Part shown: piece after piece, positions 27,668 through 33,390 of the stretch
Layout: the number at the start of each line of letters is the position of its first letter
How positions within the stretch are numbered: position 1 is the first letter of the stretch
From: Actinomycetes bacterium
GTDB lineage: Bacteria > Actinomycetota > Acidimicrobiia > Acidimicrobiales > Ilumatobacteraceae
Assembly: GCA_014190235.1 (NCBI GenBank)
Contig: BJGC01000022.1
Coordinates: forward strand, 1-33,390
DNA: 33,390 nt
Direction of reading: 5' to 3'
Made by a program: the position numbers and the translations under genes
Notes under the pieces: generated by a model
Seen by the model: the letters and a program-made list of their open reading frames with translations, nothing else
What the model was told of the DNA's origin: nothing
Databases searched by the model: none

Positions 27668-27741
27668 GCCGGCGTGGCCCAATTGGCAGAGGCACCAGGT
27701 TTAGGACCTGGGTGTTGTGGGTTCGAGTCCCACCGCCGGCA
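27668..27741 (+). tRNA. tRNA-Leu (anticodon UAG) with short variable region
   Basis: A 74-nt cloverleaf: acceptor arms 27668-27674 and 27734-27740 pair perfectly; the D-arm (27677-27693) has a 3-bp stem and a long loop with GG; the anticodon stem is 27695-27699/27707-27711 with anticodon TAG at 27702-27704; the T-arm is 27717-27733 with TTCGAGT loop; discriminator A at 27741. CCA is not encoded. The D-arm, A73 and T-arm resemble leucine tRNAs, but the variable region is only 5 nt (27712-27716), whereas tRNA-Leu is normally class II with a long variable arm. Identity as Leu rests on the anticodon (CUA/CUN codons) and the D-arm. Confidence 0.88.
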
Positions 27742-27743
27742 CT

Positions 27744-28757
27744 ATGAACATCGCTGATTTGCCGACCCCTGCGGTCGTGATCGACGCAGCAATCCTGCGC
27801 AACAACATCACGCACATGGCAACGCTGCACCCTGCAACTGCATTGCGCCCGCATGTCAAAGCACATAAGTGCACATCGTTGGCACGACTTCAACAAGACG
27901 CAGGTCACACCGCGTTTACGTGTGCAACCCCGCGTGAAGTCATCGGAATGGCTTCTGCTGGAGTGGGCACCGATCTCTTGCTGGCAAATGAAGTTCTCGA
28001 TCCCCAACGACTCACACAAATGGCTCGTGCACAAGACACCACTCGCGTAACTGTTGCAGTTGACTCACAAGAAACTGTTCGCGCTGCTGCTCGAGCAGGC
28101 ATTGCCAATGTCTTGATCGACATCAATGTTGGTTTGCCACGCTGTGGCTGCTCAGTCGATGACGCACCGCGACTTGCTGACTTAGCACGCTCATTGGGCG
28201 TAGAGGTTCGCGGAGTAATGGGCTATGAAGGTCATCTCATGATGGTTGCCGACAAACAAGAACGCCGAGACAAGGTGCACGAGGCAATGCAAATCCTTGC
28301 TGATGCAATTTTGCGTGTTGGTGGAAACATCGTGTCGGCTGGTGGCACCGGAACATTTGATATGTACGACGGCACCGTTGTCAATGAAGTCCAAACTGGC
28401 AGCTATGCGCTCATGGACACGTATTACTCCCAACTTGGATTACCTTTTCACCAAGCAATGTGGGTGCTTGGTACCGTGATTTCAGTCAGTCCCGAATGGG
28501 CAGTTGTTGATGTTGGTCTCAAAGCTCTTGGCATGGACCACGGCGACCCAAGCATTGATCAACACAAAGTGTGGTTCTGCTCCGATGAGCACATCACATT
28601 TTCACCATCAGACAGAGTCACTTTCCCGAGCATCGGTGATCAGATTCGGGTCACACCCGGACACATTGACCCCACTATGTCAATGCATTCTACCGCATTT
28701 GTTATTGACGGTGATGCTGTGATCGACCAATGGTCAATCGACCTACGGGGTTGGTAG
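27744..28757 (+). CDS. D-threonine aldolase/D-serine dehydratase family PLP enzyme
   Basis: A 337-residue fold-type III (alanine racemase-like) PLP protein. The PLP lysine is expected at Lys39 in R-P-H-V-K-A-H-K; G-T-G-T-F (201-205) and Q-T-G-S-Y-A-L-M-D (217-225) match the cofactor and substrate regions of the family. At the C-terminus P-G-H-I-D places His307 and Asp309 where D-threonine aldolases hold their divalent metal; D-serine dehydratases have His and Cys there. So D-threonine aldolase-type cleavage of D-beta-hydroxy amino acids is favoured, by inference. The ATG lies 2 nt after the tRNA-Leu, with no ribosome binding site, and no later start keeps the conserved T-P-A-V-V-I-D. The 3' end overlaps rdgB by 15 bp in convergent orientation. 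Confidence 0.85.
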   Translation: MNIADLPTPAVVIDAAILRNNITHMATLHPATALRPHVKAHKCTSLARLQQDAGHTAFTCATPREVIGMASAGVGTDLLLANEVLDPQRLTQMARAQDTTRVTVAVDSQETVRAAARAGIANVLIDINVGLPRCGCSVDDAPRLADLARSLGVEVRGVMGYEGHLMMVADKQERRDKVHEAMQILADAILRVGGNIVSAGGTGTFDMYDGTVVNEVQTGSYALMDTYYSQLGLPFHQAMWVLGTVISVSPEWAVVDVGLKALGMDHGDPSIDQHKVWFCSDEHITFSPSDRVTFPSIGDQIRVTPGHIDPTMSMHSTAFVIDGDAVIDQWSIDLRGW

Positions 28758-32470: not shown

Positions 32471-32947
32471 ATGACTACAACACCCGACACCGTATTAGCG
32501 AGCAATCGCAAAGCACGCCACGACTACAGCATCCTTGATGTGGTCGAGGCCGGAATTGTGCTGCTCGGAAGCGAAGTCAAAAGCCTTCGTTCTGGACAGG
32601 TACAAATCGTCGACGCCTACGCGCGGGTGCTTGACCACGAGATATGGCTTGATGGAGTGCATATTCCGCCATATCGATTTGCTGTTGGAACGGGCGCCCA
32701 CGACCCAGATCGTTCTCGCAAATTATTACTCAATCGTTCAGAAATTGATCGTCTTGGGGAGCGCATTGCGCGAGAGCGCTTGTCGCTTGTGCCACTCTCG
32801 CTTCGTTTAGTAGGCGGACGAGTCAAGGTTGAACTTGCGCTCGCAAAAGGACGCAAGGCTCCAGATAAGCGCAATGCAATTGCCGAGCGCGATGTACAAC
32901 GCGAGATGCAAAAAGCGCTTGGTCGTCAGCGCAAACGCAACGATTAA
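32471..32947 (+). CDS. smpB: SsrA-binding protein SmpB
   Basis: A 158-residue RNA-binding protein that brings alanyl-tmRNA to stalled ribosomes. Seen: N-R-K-A-R-H-D-Y near the N-terminus, G-I-V-L-L-G-S-E-V-K-S-L-R-S-G of the beta-barrel, and the basic tail with G-R-K-A-P-D-K-R-N-A-I-A-E-R-D that enters the decoding centre. Length is typical. TACGCT lies 11 nt before the ATG and there is no Shine-Dalgarno sequence. The tmRNA gene begins 55 bp downstream, so both partners of trans-translation are side by side. Confidence 0.96.
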   Translation: MTTTPDTVLASNRKARHDYSILDVVEAGIVLLGSEVKSLRSGQVQIVDAYARVLDHEIWLDGVHIPPYRFAVGTGAHDPDRSRKLLLNRSEIDRLGERIARERLSLVPLSLRLVGGRVKVELALAKGRKAPDKRNAIAERDVQREMQKALGRQRKRND

Positions 32948-32988
32948 TCCGTGCATTATTGCTCCAGCCTTGGTCTACACTGGTGACG

Positions 32989-32994
32989 TATAAC
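32989..32994 (+). promoter_or_regulatory. Candidate -10 element for ssrA
   Basis: TATAAC ends 8 nt before the predicted tmRNA 5' end at 33003, the usual distance to a start site. The -35 is not well defined. Confidence 0.45.
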
Positions 32995-33002
32995 CGACAC
33001 AC

Positions 33003-33387
33003 GGGGCTGACAGGTTTCGACACCAGTTTCGTTGGCCGGACGTGCGACCCGAGTTGCTCAGACTCGTTAAACAGGGCAAAAAAAGAATTGCCAACGAGCA
33101 GTTCGCTCTCGCCGCCTAATTCATTAGGTAGTTGAGAGACACCGTGAGCAGCAATGCCGCACGGGGCCAATCCATCGCAGCCCGGCAACAGAAGCGAAGG
33201 ATGACAGCGAGAAAGAACGCTGACTGCAGGAAAGCCTGCTGACATGTCGCAAAGACGGCACGTGGCCCACCACTTCGGTGATGGGAAATCGACCCACCGG
33301 TGGTGTTGCGTTAGCACCGAAGTGGGAATGGTCGTAGCGCGGTCGTCTAGCGCCTGATGGACGGGGGTTCGATTCCCCCCAGCTCCA
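33003..33387 (+). ncRNA. ssrA: Transfer-messenger RNA (tmRNA)
   Basis: One-piece tmRNA of about 385 nt. The 5' GGGGCTGACAGGTTTCGACA is a hallmark start, and the 3' end has a T-arm GGGGG-TTCGATT-CCCCC and an acceptor strand CAGCTCC (33380-33386) pairing with GGGGCTG (one G-U pair), then discriminator A at 33387; CCA is not fully encoded (CCG follows). The tag frame ends with TAA at 33117-33119; reading back gives GKKRIANEQFALAA with GGC at 33075-33077 as the likely resume codon. The A-L-A-A ending directs rescued proteins to ClpXP-type proteases. The window ends 3 bp later. Confidence 0.96.
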
Positions 33388-33390
33388 CCG

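Follow-up and report, generated by a model that had tools for sequence, protein, structure and literature searches.

The tRNA gene at positions 27668–27741 of the window (the whole stretch of DNA analysed, 33,390 nucleotides long) encodes a leucine tRNA with the anticodon UAG and a variable region of only five nucleotides. Judging from sequence comparison, it is very probably the cell's working tRNA for CUA leucine codons, and probably for part of the CUG leucine codons, in a short-armed form that appears to be widespread in Actinomycetota. The UAG anticodon reads CUA and, by the wobble rule, CUG. The long variable arm is taken by reviews and annotation tools as a mark of leucine tRNAs. A short-armed tRNA-Leu is surprising to tRNA specialists, yet it is consistent with the reported biochemistry of leucyl-tRNA synthetase (LeuRS).

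Structure and class of the tRNA

The window is one complete contig (C22) of a 2.02 Mb genome assembly, which consists of 55 contigs and is 96% complete. The parts of the tRNA gene are as follows, with position numbers in the molecule that we take to be those of the Sprinzl scheme:

27668..27741, + strand: short-arm tRNA-Leu(UAG), 74 nt, CCA not encoded (ARAGORN, Rfam RF00005, 32/32 genus genomes)
27668..27674, + strand: 5′ strand of the acceptor stem, paired with 27734–27740, 7/7 pairs (read from the sequence)
27677..27693, + strand: D-arm GCCCAATTGGCAGAGGC, three pairs plus C13·A22, with A14, A15, G18, G19 and A20a
27702..27704, + strand: anticodon TAG (UAG), from the sequence and ARAGORN
27712..27716, + strand: variable region GTGTT, 5 nt, its last base U48 being the expected partner of A15 (from the sequence)
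27717..27733, + strand: T-arm, 5/5 pairs, loop TTCGAGT
27741, + strand: discriminator A73 (from the sequence; A in 156/156 family members)

A tRNA-Leu with the anticodon TAG is called by ARAGORN at 27668–27742, and the Rfam tRNA model (RF00005) matches 27668–27741 with 61.3 bits, the gathering score being 29. Together with the fold, these results bear out the original prediction of an intact tRNA-Leu(UAG) gene with A73 and the 5-nt variable region GTGTT. Its further statement that every stem pairs holds for the acceptor stem (7/7), the anticodon stem (5/5) and the T-stem (5/5), but not for the D-stem, where C13·A22 is a mismatch. The D-arm is leucine-like, with A14, A15 and GGCA, and its core CCCAA..GGCAGAGG is the basis of the pattern by which the wider family was collected.

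In terms of class, the variable region of 5 nt lies in the range of class I (4–5 nt) and not in that of class II (at least 10 nt). Class I tRNAs have a four-pair D-stem in which 13–22 is paired, whereas the window tRNA has three pairs and C13·A22. Its 7 acceptor and 5 T-stem pairs differ from the allo-tRNA geometry (8/4 or 9/3 acceptor/T pairs), and the signs of a pseudogene, namely broken stems and loss in relatives, are absent. That is to say, by the sequence features tested, the window gene is a tRNA-Leu and not a class II tRNA.

Conservation in the genus and gene neighbourhood

The tRNA was matched in all 32 genus genomes searched (its own included), in 31 of them over the full 74 nt; the copy in G004 is cut by a contig end and matches positions 6–74 only. 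ARAGORN calls a short tRNA-Leu(UAG) at 31/32 of these loci, the cut copy being uncalled. The comparison of orthologues that the original prediction had proposed thus finds the short form kept throughout the 32 genomes, and the view that the gene is not broken agrees both with this and with the intact fold. Gene order is also conserved, with the upstream gene present in 29/30 loci and the downstream gene in 29/30, the misses lying at contig ends. No long tRNA-Leu(UAG) was shown in the genus genomes, many of which are incomplete, and the weaker further matches in them lack the 1–44 profile of long tRNA-Leu(UAG) genes elsewhere.

The downstream gene (27744–28757), which we take to be D-threonine-aldolase-like, begins 2 nt past the last base of the tRNA. 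In all 30 of the genus loci L001–L030, an ATG or GTG follows the tRNA at a distance of 1 or 2 nt, so that tRNA processing would leave a leaderless mRNA. In addition, a tmRNA gene with the tag ANEQFALAA lies at the contig end (window 32471–33390), after an upstream gene that is presumably smpB.

Meaning of the CUA codon

The 32 window genes contain 66 CUA codons. For 19 of these genes, homologues were obtained from regions of 20 genomes for which the searches had turned up no short UAG tRNA. In the CUA columns, 59% of the 429 aligned residues are Leu, as compared with 60–63% at the five other leucine codons, and Leu is the commonest residue in 21 of the 25 CUA columns with at least eight homologues. 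Ile is commoner at CUA columns (14% vs 6–8% at the five other leucine codons), which counts against leucine. In three genomes that have a short CAA tRNA, the UUG columns are 73% Leu (143 residues); the UUA columns of seven genomes with a short UAA tRNA yielded 8 residues only (Ile 3, Leu 2 and three others). Alignment of the codon with another amino acid, by which a recoded or suppressor tRNA would be recognised, was not found for CUA. The earlier suggestion that the tRNA has been recoded is therefore not upheld, since the residues aligned at CUA are mostly leucine and only leucine anticodons occur among the family members collected.

Other leucine tRNAs and the LeuRS of the genome

The tRNA model gives 36 matches in the genome. 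The other leucine tRNAs among them (CAA, CAG, UAA and AAG) are all long-armed, with 84–86 nt by ARAGORN, and at 13·22 they have a purine–purine mismatch, G·A (A·A in the CAG one). A separate normal tRNA-Leu(UAG), which the original prediction had named as the finding that would speak against it, was sought, and no second UAG tRNA was found among the 36 matches. Because the assembly is 96% complete and some expected tRNAs are absent from it (Ile-GAU, Ser-GCU and Val-UAC were not seen), a long tRNA-Leu(UAG) could sit in an assembly gap. It was also observed that the genome has a tRNA-Leu(AAG) (L072, G000:C6:70937-71020) and no GAG was seen; AAG occurs in G031 and G430 as well. This presumably implies A34-to-inosine editing of a leucine tRNA.

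A single LeuRS stands above the curated cut-off in the genome (L060:838-3690), with 951 aa from the first ATG. It is full-length, aligning through to the end of the solved bacterial LeuRS, and it has about 50 residues (172–222) between the blocks that align to the Thermus LeuRS. Candidates for a second LeuRS were rejected: the weaker matches of the LeuRS model are ValRS (C42, C25) and MetRS (C14) by NCBIfam, and the one on C51 overlaps C14 and so looks like the beginning of the MetRS there. A further weak match, the C1 frame of 1037 aa, we take to be IleRS. Two clearly different LeuRS types exist in the order, one of about 950 aa, to which the enzyme of this genome belongs, the other shorter, with frames of about 820–880 aa, and both sometimes occur within one family (e.g., f15, f17, f19).

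The wider family of short-armed leucine tRNAs

The family pattern consists of the D-arm, the short variable region and the T-loop, with the anticodon open. It fixes A14, A15, G18, G19, A20a and U48 and leaves the anticodon and A73 free, so the fixed D-arm positions and U48 give no independent support, except for U48 under a looser pattern. The family pattern matches 113 of 397 genomes of the order. In the class sample 39/247 genomes were matched, with only 2/176 outside the order, where the short form is therefore rare, and in the phylum sample 58/296 were matched, including 44/269 in other classes; the three samples overlap. As a control, the pattern read backwards had no match in the tabulated rows of the order, class and phylum scans. 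Since this control is 0 and all 32 genus genomes have the form, the window tRNA form is more than chance.

The loci collected ahead of the viral scan yielded 156 distinct full tRNAs. All of them have leucine anticodons (UAA 82, CAA 36, UAG 32, CAG 5, GAG 1) and all have A73; the variable region measures 5 nt in 152 of them, and the other 4 have 6 nt. In every one the acceptor stem has at least 6 pairs and the anticodon and T-stems at least 4 each, and in 124 of the 156 every pair of these three stems is present together with 10–25. At 16 of the 17 acceptor, anticodon and T-stem positions, two or more pair types are represented. With position 48 and some of the D-stem left free and only N-A-R anticodons allowed, the looser pattern gave 56 matches in 48/60 genomes, with U48 in 56/56 (counted by eye) and GGCAGAGG in 55/56.

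In the named-genome scan, at least 118 stretches carry the family pattern. The matches listed there include 122 tRNAs, of which 107 belong to Actinomycetota, 13 to seven other phyla and 2 to records without a phylum; among the matches listed, the Actinomycetota with the short form include Mycobacterium, Corynebacterium, Nocardia, Rhodococcus, Microbacterium, Bifidobacteriaceae and Ilumatobacteraceae. The earlier proposal that this lineage has shortened the arm is too narrow, as the short form occurs across the order and the phylum and in phages and tRNA arrays.

Short and long forms, phages and tRNA arrays

Short and long forms were tabulated for 50 of 67 genomes; left out were G100 and G605 (no match), G663 (partly listed) and 14 others. 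The long-arm leucine pattern fixes AGACGC and misses other D-arms, and its backward control gave 2 matches in the 67 genomes. Three matches without a leucine anticodon (G089, G146, G430) were excluded as chance, and a further short CAA tRNA of G830 lies outside the table. A short tRNA-Leu is present in 39 of the 50 genomes, with 47 anticodon kinds in all, and in these 39 no anticodon was found in both the short and the long form. Twelve of the 39 have all five leucine anticodon families with one form each. Fisher values for the table are 0.0006, 0.0004 and 0.001, relatedness being ignored. The short form seems to take the place of a long-armed tRNA-Leu.

When the short forms are placed on a LeuRS tree built quickly for 25 genomes, no fewer than 4 changes are required for the short-UAG state and no fewer than 2 for the short-CAA state, gains and losses counted alike; a missing short tRNA may also mean an assembly gap. 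Two genomes of one genus (G138, G267) differ in the short-UAG state, a comparison that for G138 covers the short form alone.

Matches to the family pattern also lie on at least 120 viral contigs. Since a short tRNA-Leu was the reason for choosing the viral and array loci, the Leu fractions are biased, while the Ser and Tyr figures are unselected. In the viral loci, among the matches listed, ARAGORN finds 156/187 tRNA-Leu, 1/52 tRNA-Ser and 2/25 tRNA-Tyr to be short (at most 79 nt); in eight genome loci with at least 10 tRNAs, the short ones are 25/29 tRNA-Leu, 0/13 tRNA-Ser and 0/4 tRNA-Tyr. In the arrays L161, L214, L217 and L223, four or five leucine tRNAs, all but one of them short, lie beside long tRNA-Ser or tRNA-Tyr. 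The occurrence in phages and arrays fits exchange via mobile elements in either direction.

Proposed recognition and rival explanations

We infer that the single ordinary LeuRS of the cell would charge the window tRNA through A73 and the D-loop/T-loop corner, without the variable arm. The corner elements proposed for LeuRS are A14, A15–U48, G18, G19 and A20a. According to a review of tRNA identity (PMC9976931), E. coli tRNA-Leu needs A73, A15–U48, G18G19 and A20a, the anticodon and the long arm are dispensable, and armless variants stay active in in-vitro selection data. The window tRNA keeps A73, A15–U48, G18G19 and A20a when compared with what that source gives, which supports the earlier suggestion that LeuRS recognises other elements. 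Because LeuRS would tolerate the absence of the arm, short and long isoacceptors could displace each other; SerRS reads its tRNA through the long arm, as stated in the part of PMC7609411 available, so that no such swap would be allowed and tRNA-Ser would stay long. Short tRNAs are found alongside each of the two LeuRS types present in the order, so that a dedicated LeuRS seems unneeded.

Two of the rival explanations concern the part that the window tRNA plays in decoding. It is scarcely credible that it is recoded and brings a non-leucine amino acid to CUA: a short variable region is indeed typical of other isotypes, Ile is somewhat raised at CUA columns (14%), and the 3′ part of the molecule resembles the cell's own tRNA-Asn (score 21) as much as tRNA-Leu(CAA) (score 20), but part-wise similarity to own tRNAs separates isotypes poorly and the best whole-length match is tRNA-Leu(CAA), with 58 of 66 aligned positions. 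Moreover, CUA columns have 59% leucine, like other leucine codons, and a leucine anticodon with A73 is found in 156/156 family members. That the gene is a decaying or unexpressed copy, with a normal long tRNA-Leu(UAG) doing the work, is extremely unlikely. The assembly is not closed, and mycobacteria with a short-loop cluster tRNA-Leu(TAG) beside a normal one are described in the part of PMC6582537 available; against this stand the ARAGORN calls at 31/32 genus loci (the remaining one is cut), the flanking genes conserved in the genus, the lack of a further UAG tRNA among the 36 tRNA matches of the genome, and the fact that a long copy with the same anticodon was not found in any of the 39 short-bearing genomes tabulated.

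The other two concern how the short form is charged and how it arose. The cell's own enzyme has about 50 residues between the Thermus-aligned blocks and two clearly distinct LeuRS types are present in the order, from which one might suppose that a special LeuRS is needed, e.g., the long type with an insert near residues 172–222. This is highly unlikely, as short tRNAs occur in G065, G096, G115, G151 and G275, where the only listed match is the other LeuRS type, and phages of Shigella, Salmonella and Bacillus carry a short tRNA-Leu (known from the phage genes alone). A chimera, in which the 5′ half of a leucine tRNA and the 3′ half of a class I tRNA recombined once in the genus, would agree with positions 8–43 matching the own tRNA-Leu(AAG) best (score 17) and the 3′ part matching tRNA-Asn best (score 21, tRNA-Leu(CAA) 20). 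It is nonetheless highly improbable, since throughout the phylum and also outside it the same D-arm and short region are combined with five leucine anticodons, which makes a recombination at genus level unneeded.

Beyond the reading of the window tRNA as the working leucine tRNA for CUA, a wider hypothesis can be put forward tentatively, although its probability is rather low. The short tRNA-Leu may form a class of exchangeable isoacceptors, undescribed in the literature searched, which covers all five leucine anticodon families, moves about in phages and tRNA arrays, and has repeatedly displaced the chromosomal long form of the same anticodon in Actinomycetota, for example by escaping nuclease or other attack on the long arm or the usual leucine D-arm.

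The family offers a large set of natural leucine tRNAs without the long arm, which agrees with the reported in-vitro selection data for the E. coli LeuRS. It can also serve as a natural experiment for finding out which of the class II synthetases depend on the arm, the tRNA-Ser and tRNA-Tyr in the same loci being nearly all long, and as an example of isoacceptors being replaced repeatedly, in which phages may have had a part. In the part of the tRNAscan-SE 2.0 paper available, a missing long arm is among the signs of a doubtful human tRNA-Leu gene; the present set advises caution against labelling short-armed tRNA-Leu genes as misassigned or recoded.

Comparison with known systems

In the literature searched, outside which most subscription papers lie, no general account of short-armed bacterial tRNA-Leu was noticed, apart from one passing mention in the part of PMC6582537 available. 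With the canonical bacterial tRNA-Leu (class II), the window tRNA shares the leucine anticodon, A73, A14, A15–U48, G18G19 and A20a, and GGCAGA in the D-loop is common to it and the four long leucine tRNAs of the genome. It differs in the absence of the long variable arm, and in having C–G at 12–23 and C·A at 13·22, where its own long relatives have G–C and the purine–purine mismatch.

The nearest described case is the cluster tRNA-Leu(TAG) of Mycobacterium mucogenicum and M. phocaicum, which, in the part of PMC6582537 available, has the same anticodon and a short variable loop. The mycobacterial gene is reported there to be part of a tRNA gene cluster and to exist in addition to a normal long copy at another place, whereas the window tRNA is the only UAG tRNA found and lies between conserved genes. 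Short tRNA-Leu genes are also present in Shigella phage Sf17, Salmonella phage vB_SenM_SB18, Mycobacterium phage BeanWater, Streptomyces phage SparkleGoddess and Bacillus phage vB_BcoS-136. Like the window tRNA, the matched gene in each of these five phages has the D-arm CCCAA and a 5-nt variable region; unlike it, these genes are phage-borne and annotated only as tRNA-Leu, and 4/5 are changed in the GGCAGAGG core or the D-loop.

Outside bacteria, human mitochondrial tRNA-Leu(UUR) also has no long arm, with A73 and A14 as main determinants according to the part of PMC9976931 available. It is charged by a mitochondrial synthetase and has a partly unfolded anticodon branch, whereas the window tRNA has a full cloverleaf and a bacterial LeuRS. 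In the nematode nev-tRNAs, as given in the part of PMC4033280 available, the variable arm and the codon class likewise break the textbook pairing, but they are the reverse case, in which a long arm is joined to class I codons.
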